Position numbers and translations under genes: made by a program
Shown: in pieces, positions 40,921 through 64,000 of the stretch
Numbering within the stretch: position 1 is the first letter of the stretch
Layout of the letters: each line of letters begins with the position of its first letter
Notes under the pieces: model-generated
The model's database searches: none
What the model was told of the DNA's origin: nothing
The model's input: the letters and a program-made list of their open reading frames with translations, nothing else
From: Amycolatopsis sp. WQ 127309
GTDB lineage: Bacteria; Actinomycetota; Actinomycetes; Mycobacteriales; Pseudonocardiaceae
DNA length: 64,000 bases
NCBI RefSeq assembly: GCF_023023025.1
Contig: NZ_CP095481.1
Coordinates: 7,267,001 to 7,331,000, forward strand
Reading direction: 5' to 3'

Positions 40921-42513
40921 ATGACGACGATCGACGAACCCACGACACCCCCGGCGGTACCCCAGGACCTGCGCGCCCTGGTCGGTGAGCTGAACACCGC
41001 CCGTCGGCGCGCCGAGGACGGGCCGTCCCCGGACGCGACCCGGACCCAGCGCGCCAAGGGCAAGCTGACCGTGCGGGACCGGCTGGCGCTGCTGTTCGAC
41101 GCCGGTTCGTTCCACGAGATCGAGCGTTTCCGGCACCACCGCTCGTCCGGGTTCGGGCTCGAGCACCGGCGTCCCGCGACCGACGGCGTCGTCACCGGCT
41201 GGGGGACGGTCTTCGGTCGCACGGTCTTCGCCTACGCCCACGACTTCCGGATCTTCGGCGGCTCGCTGGGGGAAGCGCACGCGGCGAAGATCCAGAAGCT
41301 GATGGACATGGCCGGCGCGGCGGGCGCCCCGCTGGTCTCGTTGTCCGACGGCGCCGGCGCCCGCATCCAGGAAGGCGTCACGGCGCTGGCCGGGTACGGC
41401 GGGATCTTCGAGCGCAACGTCCGGTTCTCCGGGGTGATCCCGCAGATCAGCGTGATGCTCGGCCCGTGCGCCGGCGGTGCGACCTACTCGCCGGCGTTGA
41501 CGGACTTCGTGTTCATGGTGCGCGGCATCGCGCAGATGTACATCACCGGCCCGGACGTCGTCCGCTCGGTGACCGGCGAGGAGATCACCCACGAGCAGCT
41601 CGGCGGGGCCGCGGTGCACGCGACCGTGTCCGGCGCGAGCGGGTTCGTCCACGACACCGAGGAAGAGTGCCTCGAAGACGTCCGGTACCTGATCTCGCTG
41701 CTGCCGGCCAACAACCGTGAGCTGGCCCCGTCGGTCGAGCCGTCCGACGCGCCGGACCGGCGCTGTGAGCGGCTGCTGGACCTCGTGCCCGCCGACGTCG
41801 CGCAGGCCTACGACATGCGCGCGGTCGTCGAAGAGGTCGTGGACGACGGCGAGCTGTTCGAGGTGCACGCGTCCTGGGCGCGCAACGTCATCTGCGGGCT
41901 GGCCCGGCTGGACGGGCACGTGGTCGGCGTCGTCGCCAACCAGCCCGCCGTGCTGGCCGGCGTGCTGGACATCCCGGCGTCGGAGAAGGCCGCGCGGTTC
42001 GTGCAGATGTGCGACGCCTTCAGCATCCCGCTCGTCACCCTGGTCGACGTCCCGGGGTTCCTGCCCGGCAGCGACCAGGAGCACGGCGGCATCATCCGGC
42101 ACGGCGCGAAGCTGCTCTACGCCTACTGCAACGCCTCGGTGCCCCGCGTCCAGGTCGTCCTGCGCAAGGCGTACGGCGGGGCCTACATCGTGATGGACTC
42201 CCGTTCGATCGGCTGTGACCTGTCCTTCGCCTGGCCCACCAACGAAATCGCGGTGATGGGGGCCGAGGGCGCGGCGAACGTGGTGTTCCGCAAGGAGATC
42301 AACGCGGCGCTGGACCCGGACGCGGTGCGGGCGAAGCTGATCGAGGAGTACCGGACGAACCTGATGCACGGCTACTACGCGGCCGAGCGCGGGCTCGTCG
42401 ACGACGTGATCGACCCGGCCGACACCCGGCGGATCCTGATCGACGCGCTGGGGACGCTGCGCTCGAAACACGCGCAGCTGCCGCAGCGCAAGCACGGGAA
42501 CCCGCCGACATGA
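40921..42513 (+). CDS. Acyl-CoA carboxylase beta subunit (carboxyltransferase), AccB-like
   Basis: A 530-residue carboxyltransferase: an N-terminal crotonase-like half with LVSLSDGAGARIQEGVTALA and GPCAGGATYSPALTDF (oxyanion holes), and a C-terminal half with TLVDVPGFLPGSDQEHGGII and AWPTNEIAVMGAEGAANVVF. It moves CO2 from biotin to acetyl- or propionyl-CoA. The residue that governs substrate choice in the Streptomyces enzymes (Asp422 of PccB, Ile in AccB) is Ile here (GGAYIVMDS, about residue 423), which fits acetyl-CoA as a substrate and malonyl-CoA as product. The biotin-carrying alpha subunit is not in the window. The gene overlaps the epsilon subunit by 4 bp and opens the operon. Confidence 0.92.
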   Translation: MTTIDEPTTPPAVPQDLRALVGELNTARRRAEDGPSPDATRTQRAKGKLTVRDRLALLFDAGSFHEIERFRHHRSSGFGLEHRRPATDGVVTGWGTVFGRTVFAYAHDFRIFGGSLGEAHAAKIQKLMDMAGAAGAPLVSLSDGAGARIQEGVTALAGYGGIFERNVRFSGVIPQISVMLGPCAGGATYSPALTDFVFMVRGIAQMYITGPDVVRSVTGEEITHEQLGGAAVHATVSGASGFVHDTEEECLEDVRYLISLLPANNRELAPSVEPSDAPDRRCERLLDLVPADVAQAYDMRAVVEEVVDDGELFEVHASWARNVICGLARLDGHVVGVVANQPAVLAGVLDIPASEKAARFVQMCDAFSIPLVTLVDVPGFLPGSDQEHGGIIRHGAKLLYAYCNASVPRVQVVLRKAYGGAYIVMDSRSIGCDLSFAWPTNEIAVMGAEGAANVVFRKEINAALDPDAVRAKLIEEYRTNLMHGYYAAERGLVDDVIDPADTRRILIDALGTLRSKHAQLPQRKHGNPPT

Positions 42514-63000: not shown

Positions 63001-64000
63001 GCGCTGCTCGCCCCGGTGTGGGACGCGGTGTCCGGTGCCGGAGAGCCCGCGGTCGGCTCCCGCCCGGTCCTCGCCGGCGGCGACGCGGCGGAGCAGGAGG
63101 CGTTCCTGGCCGCGTTCCCCGGAGCCACCCTGCTCGACGGAGAACTTCCCGCTGACGTCGACCACGTCTTCTGGCTGCCGTCCGGCGACGGCGTCCTGAG
63201 CGTCTTCCGGCTGGTCAAGGCCCTCCTGAACGACGGCGCGGACGGCCGCGAGATCGGCTTCACCGCGGTCACCCGGCAGGCGTGCCGGGTGCCGGGTGAC
63301 CGGACCCTCGACGCCACGCACGCCGGCGTGCACGGCCTGCTCGGGTCCGTCGCGAAGGAGTACCCGCACTGGCAGGTGCGGATCGTCGACGTCGCCGCGG
63401 ACGAGCCGGTGCCGTGGGACGCGGTGGCGAACCCGCCCGCCGGCCCGTACGGCGTCGTCGCCGCCCGGCGGCACGGCGAGTGGTTCCGGCCGCGGCTCCT
63501 GGAGGTCGCCGACACGCCGTACGACACACCGTCGGCGCCCAGTGGCGTTGTCGTCGCGATCGGCGGCGCGGGCGGCATCGGCACCGTGTGGACCGAGCAC
63601 CTGCTGCGCCGCCACGGCACCCAGGTCGTCTGGATCGGCCGCCGCCCGCTCGACGCGGAGATCGCCGCGAACCAGGAGCGGCTCGCCGCGTTCGGGCCGA
63701 AGCCGGACTACGTCCGCGCCGACGCGTCCGATGCGGACGATCTGCGCCGGGCCTGCGCGACGATCGTCGAGCGGCACGGGCCGGTGCACGCGGTGCTGCA
63801 CACCGCGATCGTGCTGGGCGACCAGAGCGTGGCGCGGATGACCGAGGAGCGCTTCCGCACGACCTACGCGGCCAAAGCGGACATCGCCGTCAACCTGGCC
63901 GAGGTCTTCGCGGACCAGCCCCTGGAGTTCGTCGCGTTCTTCTCGTCGATGCAGGCGTTCTTCACCGCGCCCGGCCAGGCCAACTACGCGGCGGGCTGCA
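57013..64000 (+). CDS. Trans-AT polyketide synthase 2 (5' part): KR-ACP / KS-ACP / KS-DH-KR...
   Basis: The frame from ATG 57013 stays open to the window end (over 2329 residues). Order: N-terminal region; KR3 (about 155-320, GGAGGIG; Tyr288, but Ala275 at the catalytic Ser position, with Ser274 next to it); ACP3 (Ser410); KS4 (about 492-915, Cys664); ACP4 (Ser1122, GLDSI) with no KR or methyltransferase between, so module 4 leaves a ketone; KS5 (about 1175-1581, Cys1330, DTSCSSS); DH5 (about 1739-1985, His1753 in HHVNGQAVLP, Asp1906); KR5 (from about 1990; GGAGGIG at 2183, Tyr2325), cut by the window end. Hinge regions are rich in Ala/Pro. The start codon overlaps the stop of PKS 1 (ATGA), so translation is coupled, and module 3 is completed by docking of the two proteins. 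No AT domain is present. Confidence 0.92.
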   Translation, partial: MTLRVPTWRREPAGPTALPAGARRLVMTCDLPARLPGVSIAAVETGGDDAGTAYERASIRLFGELKRLLSTGDGRPCVVQVACRAGSVFPGLIGLLRTAAREEPALRVQLVEFTGEPADLDAVLSGPGEHVRFTAEGRFVADWESVAPGAGRAWKPGGVYLMTGGAGGIGRLLAADLPPDAVLVRCGRSPAGPGEYREVDVTDAAAVRAVVEDVVRTYGRLDGVLHAAGVLRDGYLIQGSYQDFQAVLAPKVAGLVALDEATRDLPLDFFAAFSAAAGTLGNAGQAGYAAANGFLDAYLARRSGPGVGVSLGWPLWRDGGMRVPQEELPELAERFGPPLETGAALTALHGALALGAAHVVITGEGNHMTGQDDLRARVLTRLKDLIAETMRLDATRLDAEAPLDGYGIDSLTVTRLNRRFAEWFGALPKTLLYQYPTLAALAGHLAERHPEGCARWLDDAPASASAPVAAPTAPAPTAPASETGERVPATGEPIAVIGISGRYPDAPTLDAFWQNLRAGRDSVREIERWPLDGFFEPDRQRAVEEGASYSKWGGFLDGFARFDAAFFGIAPRDAADIDPQERLFLETVWSALEDAAYTRERLADQHQGRVGVFAGVTKTGFDRNHPPAVSGPRRAPRTSFASLANRVSYLLDLRGPSLPVDTMCSASLTAIHQACEQLRHGACELAIAGGVNLYLHPSTYVELSRARMLAADGRCRSFGDGGEGFVPGEGVGAVLLKPLAAAEADGDPIHAVIVGSAVNHGGRTNGYTVPNPRAQAAVVREALDNAGLTSADVGYVEAHGTGTRLGDPVEVDGLTQAFADTPADCALGSVKSNIGHLEAAAGIAGLTKVVLQLEHGELAPTLHAERTNPDIDFAATPFTLTREGGAWPSTGRRVAGISSFGAGGANAHVLVAEYPRAATPAPPRHPVLLPLSARTDADLRARAADLAAWLDTRETPDLAAIAATLQTGREAMDERLCFVARTAGEWRAQLGAYLSEVADGPWWRGKVRASRETLAALAGKPEVRALVGQWVAGGAWGELAAFWTKGTPLDWSEVDGSSTRVHLPGYPFAGPEFWFEPTGIEPPREEHADAQDVLLAELADILQMPAADIERHRPFADYGLDSILGVSLVHRLNETLGTELDTTDLFDHGTADRLGAFLAGARPVSKPAASAKDDDAIAIVGLAARYGDAETPEALWAHLTAGTDLVEPVTRWPLAGDITCRTGSFLRDIDHFDPAFFGISGVEATAMDPQQRIFLEQCWNALEDAGYTGERRLGGRTGVYVGCYAGDYGEHLDRTAPAQALWGTMGSVVASRIAYLLDFTGPALTVDTSCSSSLVALDLACRDLKTGTADVAIAGGVFVQTTPRLYASATRAGMLSPSGRCRSFDAGADGFVPGEGAGALVLKRLADAERDGDHIHAIVRASGVNQDGTTNGITAPSAASQERLLREVHAGLDGVQLVEAHGTGTQLGDPIEFRALSRVFADASPGSIALGSIKTNLGHTQFAAGVAGVVKAVLSLRHRTIPASLHFDAANARIPLAGSAFTIPTATASWPAPAHGPRRAAVSSFGASGTNAHVVLEEYPRTPSADVPGEQAFLLSARSPEALRSVAERLVAHLEPETGLAAAELAYSLAAGRAALPHRLAVVADGTAALADRLRAWLSGTATDVLTGEVPADAQPGAVSPSTARDLAGAFVRGAIAQVAEAFPAAARRVVPAPTYPYERQSYWPAAVAAPATPEPSAYRVRLTGEEFFLADHHVNGQAVLPAVLSLEFARRAVTPGTAFAPAGLRDLVWSAPFPVDATGADLTVEREGAAFRIRRDATDIHAQGRYTEPETADTVPLDAVRERCTARSLTAAQCRAALDAVGIRHGARLRALDRLAIGDGEVLAKLVVPAAARGADLAVHPALLDSAVQAVVGLFGDPAGTLAERDGRPALPFAVDAVDILTPTAETMWAHVRRATDGTEVTTVDIDVCDDAGRVAVRLRGLAFRRVAETSSPRTALLAPVWDAVSGAGEPAVGSRPVLAGGDAAEQEAFLAAFPGATLLDGELPADVDHVFWLPSGDGVLSVFRLVKALLNDGADGREIGFTAVTRQACRVPGDRTLDATHAGVHGLLGSVAKEYPHWQVRIVDVAADEPVPWDAVANPPAGPYGVVAARRHGEWFRPRLLEVADTPYDTPSAPSGVVVAIGGAGGIGTVWTEHLLRRHGTQVVWIGRRPLDAEIAANQERLAAFGPKPDYVRADASDADDLRRACATIVERHGPVHAVLHTAIVLGDQSVARMTEERFRTTYAAKADIAVNLAEVFADQPLEFVAFFSSMQAFFTAPGQANYAAGC

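Follow-up and report, generated by a model that had tools for sequence, protein, structure and literature searches.

Described clusters of the cycloheximide type and of 9-methylstreptimidone possess an acyltransferase (AT), an acyl carrier protein (ACP), and an amidotransferase—for which we took S. griseus (L037) as the representative—along with a first set of five modules, represented here by S. himastatinicus (P0090), those lines ending at or near the fifth module (PMC4853412 and PMC7930024, in the parts available). In the available text of PMC10098928, MgsF_KS4 is named as part of the iso-migrastatin pathway, while S. amphibiosporus appears as the producer of lactimidomycin (cluster ltm) in the title of a cited reference. 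Here we analyze a window of 64,000 nucleotides (7267001-7331000 of the single 11.13-Mb contig NZ_CP095481.1 of Amycolatopsis sp. WQ 127309), whose positions 40921-64000 contain the opening section of a trans-acyltransferase (trans-AT) polyketide synthase (PKS) operon. That operon shares the genes and the five modules just mentioned with the first-named clusters, but its whole line, including the DNA past the window, comprises ten ketosynthases (KSs) and a thioesterase (TE) at the end. We consider it probable that the locus represents a cluster of iso-migrastatin architecture for a predicted glutarimide macrolactone, in which KS7 and KS8 are joined and KS7 likely loads the first of two tandem carriers, ACP8a; which reading was deduced from the sequences of this locus and its relatives.

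Affiliation of the locus

The preliminary description of 40921-64000 as one trans-AT PKS operon proved accurate in that every element named is present on the + strand, with neighboring genes -8 to +28 bp apart within the window and with domain matches reaching E 1e-246, far beyond chance; and the later modules that it had placed outside the window do exist, as five further KSs lie downstream of the window end in the genome. A free AT, a discrete ACP, and an asparagine-synthetase-like amidotransferase adjoin the PKS, whose first modules read KS-dehydratase (DH)-ketoreductase (KR)-ACP and then KS-B-ACP, which features characterize a glutarimide-type cluster. Two outcomes had been named beforehand as speaking against that type—KS1 and KS2 outside the glutarimide or branching clades, or an amidotransferase grouped with the primary asparagine synthetases—and neither was found. 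In a KS tree of 161 rows and 425 columns, obtained by a quick search without bootstrap, KS1 fell within the clade of glutarimide-line KS1 (SH-aLRT 98, 15 rows) and KS2 within the KS2 clade (SH-aLRT 100, 14 rows); the KS3 of this PKS lies in a clade of glutarimide-line KS3 as well, and the lines that make up these three clades range from S. griseus and S. himastatinicus as far as Pseudomonas KUIN-1, whose branches are long. RhiE serves a different pathway, that of rhizoxin, in which it creates a branch, and its branching KS-B (4kc5, 8oii) was the nearest single-KS structure to KS2 plus the start of B, at 624 bits with 8oii against 512 for the next; here, though, the closure of a glutarimide is predicted.

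In its own tree the amidotransferase was separated from four further asparagine synthetases that this genome encodes; a fifth (L044), having no readable start, was dropped, and those four sit on long branches, so that their exact place is unsure. A clade of 13 rows unites the enzyme with its counterparts in S. amphibiosporus and S. sioyaensis; our comparison with ltm covers the amidotransferase, the S. amphibiosporus protein (P0145) being 73% identical. Such an amidotransferase (E up to 1e-150) was found in 10 of 390 genomes of the same family, four of which—this one included—have at least 85% identity, and in 3 of 394 genomes drawn evenly from the class. Together these results support a glutarimide-type cluster with a predicted glutarimide product.

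As to the branch within that type, each of KS4 to KS10 stands in the KS tree beside its positional counterpart of the iso-migrastatin type, and all ten KSs follow the same order. The best single-KS structures were 4qyr for KS3 (877 bits), 4zdn for KS4 (960), and 4tkt for KS6 (992), all titled "AT-less polyketide synthase," although the two-KS structure 7zma outscores them in summed bits. We take those three structures to be MgsE/MgsF domains of S. platensis. For the KS3 of S. sioyaensis the match to 4qyr reaches 1334 bits, with about 96% identity by eye, for which reason lines of that kind were taken as iso-migrastatin type; and the stand-ins for this type were S. sioyaensis (L030, L064, L065), Nocardiopsis, K. 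cystarginea, S. chattanoogensis, and Saccharopolyspora-like lines. By this comparison the nearest named type is that of iso-migrastatin: the starter genes, the KS order, the AT-TE fusion, the AT-ER protein, the split module 3, the KS9-DH with ACP9 on the next protein, and the terminal TE are the same. In contrast to three of those lines, where the AT-ER gene lies downstream of PKS3, the gene is here upstream.

Carriers of modules 7 and 8

The full domain order of PKS2 is KR-ACP, KS4-ACP, KS5-DH-KR-methyltransferase (MT)-ACP, KS6-KR-MT-ACP, KS7, KS8-DH-KR-ACP8a-ACP8b, KS9-DH, and that of PKS3 is ACP, KS10-DH-KR-MT-ACP-TE; module 3 is split, KS3 ending PKS1 and KR-ACP starting PKS2. The active-site Cys motif is present in all ten KSs, the last His motif fitting the strict pattern in only some; and the ACP serines and the DH, MT, and TE motifs are all present in this strain. 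In KR5, KR6, and KR10 the Tyr is accompanied by a Cys replacing the usual last Asn, a feature shared by KR5 and KR6 in two lines of the iso-migrastatin type.

We compared twenty lines, ten of which form one sub-type: this strain, NBC_00355 (L068), A. rifamycinica (L066), Lentzea xinjiangensis (L062), L. tibetensis (P0003), Lentzea NBC_00516 (P0004), Lentzea HUAS TT2 (P0005), Saccharothrix coeruleofusca (P0007), S. milbemycinicus (P0002), and a metagenome (P0006). Eight are of the iso-migrastatin type (P0008, P0009, P0010, P0013, P0014, L064, L070, L072; L074 was dropped as a repeat of P0013), and two, Streptomyces sp. NPDC007206 (P0011) and S. glaucus (P0012), make up a third variant. ACP7 is absent from all ten sub-type lines, whereas the eight iso-migrastatin-type lines, whose module 7 reads KS-ACP, and both third-variant lines possess it. 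From the YPF motif that closes the KS7 linker to KS8 there are 22-29 residues throughout the sub-type, as against 152, 176, and 217 in three of the four iso-migrastatin-type lines measured, the fourth giving no match to the motif; and an ACP scan between KS7 and KS8 with the filter off found no hidden ACP7 in the ten lines, at 3.3 bits or less versus 63-69 bits in four of four controls.

The reverse holds for ACP8a, whose pantetheine serine is kept in all ten sub-type lines and replaced by Pro, Arg, or Leu in all eight of the iso-migrastatin type. In the latter the mean pairwise identity was 60.8% for the dead ACP8a, 77.3% for ACP7, and 75.3% for ACP8b, while in the sub-type the live ACP8a reached 81.4% and ACP8b 77.4%; the dead carrier has thus drifted relative to its neighbors, and the live one has not. 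In the third variant KS7-MT-ACP7, in which module 7 carries an additional methyltransferase, is followed by KS8-DH-KR and one live ACP8. In 19 lines, consequently, two live carriers are found between KS7 and KS9, the record of P0012 ending after its ACP8; and the ACP8a of all three types group together (88/88) in an ACP tree of 74 columns with many unresolved forks. Such a pattern would be expected if carriers had been lost reciprocally from an ancestor with three. Adjacent KSs with no ACP between them occurred in 10 of 670 pairs from 240 proteins, a sample made up of matches to our own queries and not drawn at random, and seven of the ten came from this sub-type, the other three being P0094, P0307, and P0323. 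We also observed that in the small ACP tree the sub-type ACP8b lies outside the group formed by the ACP8b of the iso-migrastatin type and all the ACP8a.

KS7 retains the catalytic Cys-His-His, the His motif having been read by eye. Its ratio of nonsynonymous to synonymous substitution (dN/dS) was 0.143 against NBC_00355, 0.205 against A. rifamycinica, and 0.122 against L. xinjiangensis, compared with 0.11-0.19 for KS6, 0.06-0.20 for KS8, and 0.05-0.21 for KS9 in the same three comparisons (overall span 0.053-0.210). KS7 is thus under purifying selection in the Amycolatopsis and Lentzea comparisons, and the notion that it is a decaying relic finds no support in dN/dS.

A KR-MT cassette in the last module

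The terminal module of three of three iso-migrastatin-type lines is KS-DH-KR-ACP-TE, with a module-8-like KR and without MT, whereas an MT is present here. Residues ~150-1050 and 1880-2250 of PKS3 track the PKS3 of S. sioyaensis (KS 75%, DH 50%, ACP 54%, and TE 64% identical), but residues ~1080-1860 track module 5 instead: KR10 is 74% identical to the strain's own KR5 and 80% to that of K. cystarginea, as against 34-38% when compared with the KR10 of three lines of the iso-migrastatin type, and MT10 is 71% identical to MT5. All 12 of the sub-type PKS3 proteins examined have such a module-5-like KR (68-74% to their own KR5, 33-40% to the three iso-migrastatin-type KR10). A shortened old KR lies ahead of the cassette in S. 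milbemycinicus (P0243) and in the metagenome protein (P0244), where 71 of 123 and 62 of 99 aligned positions, respectively, are identical to the S. sioyaensis stretch; among the 4 of 12 PKS3 aligned for that remnant, A. rifamycinica (P0246) and this strain yielded none. The S-adenosylmethionine (SAM) motif of the module-10 MT is intact in 8 of the 12, this strain included. A methyl group at C2 of the product is accordingly a prediction of the cassette, one that would have been lost again in the four Lentzea whose motif is broken.

Proposed assembly and alternative explanations

From what is known of the family, the AT, the ACP, and the amidotransferase would prime the line with malonamyl-ACP; modules 1-2 would close the glutarimide ring; module 3 would leave a hydroxyl and module 4 a ketone; and modules 5 and 6 would contribute C-methyls and what later becomes the lactone oxygen. 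Because no carrier lies between KS7 and KS8, ACP8a would be the likely recipient of the KS7 product, by condensation onto malonyl-ACP8a, the single DH-KR of the KS7-KS8 unit would act on that product, and ACP8a would hand it back to KS8, which in turn would condense onto ACP8b. This order of events is suggested by the KS7 and carrier data in combination with the precedent of the leinamycin family, in which tandem carriers operate in series with distinct roles within one module, though there in a single final module with β-branching and here behind two joined KSs (PMC7618002, in the parts available). Module 10 would methylate C2 and the TE would close a 12-membered ring, which would yield a 2-methyl relative of iso-migrastatin or lactimidomycin. 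Taken all together—a KS7-KS8 bimodule performing two elongations on one DH-KR (KS7 with ACP8a, KS8 with ACP8b), reciprocal carrier loss from a three-carrier ancestor, a module-5-like KR-MT cassette in the last module with a remnant of the displaced KR in two relatives, and a new family of 2-methyl glutarimide macrolactones in Amycolatopsis, Saccharothrix, and S. milbemycinicus—this set of proposals seems to us somewhat more credible than not.

Several observations weigh against that scheme. In the comparison with iso-migrastatin the stand-in lines took the place of MgsA-K, MgsF, and LtmF. The dN/dS of KS7, though low, is the highest of the compared KSs in two comparisons (0.143, 0.205) and the lowest in the third. 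KS8 (PKS2 residues 5119-5496) has in the sub-type the longest stem of the ten KSs in the tree, 0.33, and reads DSACSS in 6 of 6 sub-type lines printed versus DTACSS in 5 of 5 of the iso-migrastatin type, which combination could mean that its substrate has changed. Moreover, the association between ACP7 and ACP8a separates only two sister clades, so that it may stem from one event and does not amount to 18 independent tests; and the module-10 SAM motif is broken in 4 of the 12 PKS3, all of them from Lentzea.

That altered KS8, along with a KS7 lacking a carrier of its own in ten of ten lines, is what might be expected if KS7 no longer elongated and the chain passed directly from ACP6 to KS8, in which event the product would be two carbons shorter and the ring 10-membered. 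We deem such a bypass rather unlikely, since KS7 keeps its Cys and both His and is under purifying selection in the comparisons cited, and since ACP8a is alive and conserved exactly where ACP7 was lost. If KS7 does elongate, its carrier might instead be supplied in trans, by the discrete ACP (45753-46019), by ACP8b, or by a second use of ACP6, for which the presence of the discrete ACP within the operon and the service of a mupirocin KS by trans-acting carriers (PMC10098928, in the parts available) offer some grounds. Lines with ACP7 also possess that discrete ACP, however, so that it does not track the loss of ACP7 as the ACP8a serine does, and we regard this supply in trans as very improbable.

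The domain differences might, on the other hand, be silent, with an ordinary iso-migrastatin or lactimidomycin cluster producing a known compound. The iso-migrastatin order of all ten KSs is compatible with this view, and in print the trans-AT cluster of the relative L. xinjiangensis has been listed as iso-migrastatin-like, at <60% similarity (PMC9120177, in the parts available). Against it stand the module-10 MT, with its intact SAM motif here and its absence from the three iso-migrastatin-type lines, and the P450s, which are just 30-32% identical to those beside three such lines; a known product seems to us an unlikely outcome. The other tailoring gene compared there, the methyltransferase, shows 45-47% identity. 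We retain loading of ACP8a by KS7 as the preferred interpretation.

Gene inventory

The operon runs in the order carboxyltransferase, carboxylase epsilon, SARP, nitroreductase, AT-TE, ACP, amidotransferase, PKS1, and PKS2 (Table 1). The two P450s are paralogs, comparison with the copies in NBC_00355 and A. rifamycinica putting their identity at 70-72%. The PKS3 of Amycolatopsis sp. NBC_01307 shares 98% identity with the one encoded here. The protein at 39332-40432 gave a weak match (54.6 bits, well short of the cut-off) to part of NF002563, a model for the argininosuccinate lyase family, which we take as ATP-grasp-like.

Table 1. Features of the cluster and its surroundings, in window positions unless genome positions are specified.
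Feature	Position	Strand	Evidence or remark
SARP-TPR (AfsR-like) regulator, probable left end of conserved cluster	35796..39134	+	69-77% in L028, L029, L043
Unnamed protein	39332..40432	+	present in 3/16 related loci (Saccharothrix, Lentzea, A. rifamycinica)
Acyl-CoA carboxyltransferase	40921..42513	+	PF01039; ATG at 40921
Acyl-CoA carboxylase epsilon subunit	42510..42716	+	PF13822, 28.7 bits
SARP regulator	42745..43521	+	in the operon
Nitroreductase-family protein	43518..44177	+	PF00881, 58.4 bits
AT-TE, free AT fused to thioesterase	44195..45760	+	PF00698, PF00975; GHSLG motifs
Discrete ACP, predicted starter carrier	45753..46019	+	PF00550
Asparagine-synthetase-like amidotransferase	46025..47995	+	domain match and tree
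PKS1: KS1-DH-KR-ACP, KS2-B-ACP, KS3	48020..57016	+	domain matches
KS1 core	48041..49219	+	domain match, KS tree
KS2 core, branching type	52241..53422	+	RhiE likeness, KS tree
B (branching) domain region	54017..54814	+	between KS2 and its ACP; start aligns with RhiE
KS3 core	55145..56293	+	best single-KS structure 4qyr; KS tree
PKS2, in-window part: KR-ACP, KS4-ACP, KS5-DH-KR	57013..64000	+	cut by window end; full gene to genome 7346494
KR of split module 3	57475..57978	+	domain match
KS4 core	58483..59652	+	best single-KS structure 4zdn
KS5 core	60532..61641	+	domain match
DH of module 5	62206..62997	+	domain match
KR of module 5	63535..64000	+	cut by window end; family resembles module-10 KR-MT
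AT-ER	genome 7346491-7348704		outside window
P450	genome ~7348701-7349912		outside window
PKS3	genome 7350016-7356780		outside window
Second P450	genome 7356782-7357990		outside window
Methyltransferase	genome 7358047-7358931		outside window
MFS	genome 7359004-7360476		outside window

The preliminary description had suggested that the compound may be new on the strength of the in-operon carboxylase, SARP, nitroreductase, and AT-TE. The suggestion itself is supported, on grounds other than those first offered: here ACP7 is deleted, ACP8a is live, and module 10 holds a KR-MT cassette. The AT-TE is common to the iso-migrastatin type, both parts aligning in four of four such loci—although in S. 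griseus, L038, and L042 the alignment covers the AT and not the TE—and can be discarded as a novelty of this cluster. The carboxyltransferase and nitroreductase genes are real, but are patchy among 16 amidotransferase-centered loci (nitroreductase in 2, carboxyltransferase in 1, that one being A. rifamycinica L043, at 90%), so that we rejected those as novelties as well.

Occurrence and significance

We searched the literature for glutarimide products of Amycolatopsis, Lentzea, and Saccharothrix and for ACP-less or tandem-KS modules. Among the best-ranked matches listed, from a coverage that leaves out most subscription papers, none reported what the sub-type makes, KSs joined in this way, or the exchange of carriers. 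In the available parts of the sources, a KS-KR module without ACP is described for another pathway (PMC7157528) and an iso-migrastatin cluster is attributed to a Lentzea type strain (PMC11092160). What is known here, then, is the membership in the glutarimide kind; what would be new is a variant of the iso-migrastatin branch with a likely new glutarimide antibiotic, which product would join the eukaryotic translation inhibitors of a class investigated for antitumor leads (PMC10574677 and PMC4853412, in the parts available).

Which carrier is assigned to which KS, and how domains may be changed one by one without failure, are open questions in the engineering of trans-AT PKSs. Two natural sister lines appear to use different carriers for the same step, and an exchange of cassettes is visible, two relatives still retaining the decaying domain that was displaced; from which the designs that could be tested are tandem carriers serving two joined KSs in series and a KR-MT cassette placed in the last module.

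S. milbemycinicus (P0002, P0243) is the one named Streptomyces in the sub-type, the other lines belonging to Amycolatopsis, Lentzea, and Saccharothrix, which distribution may point to transfer.

Elsewhere in the window, outside the cluster, a fatty-acid desaturase gene adjoins a flavin/2Fe-2S oxidoreductase gene on the - strand (20732-23231), and two long overlapping reading frames (760-2751 and 2325-4298, together 760-4298) with no Pfam match lie on the same strand. Rfam and tRNA scans of the 64-kb window found nothing. The genome as a whole is very rich in polyketide genes, with 133 matches to PF00109 (ketosynthase family) and open frames of 15,775 and 14,553 amino acids.

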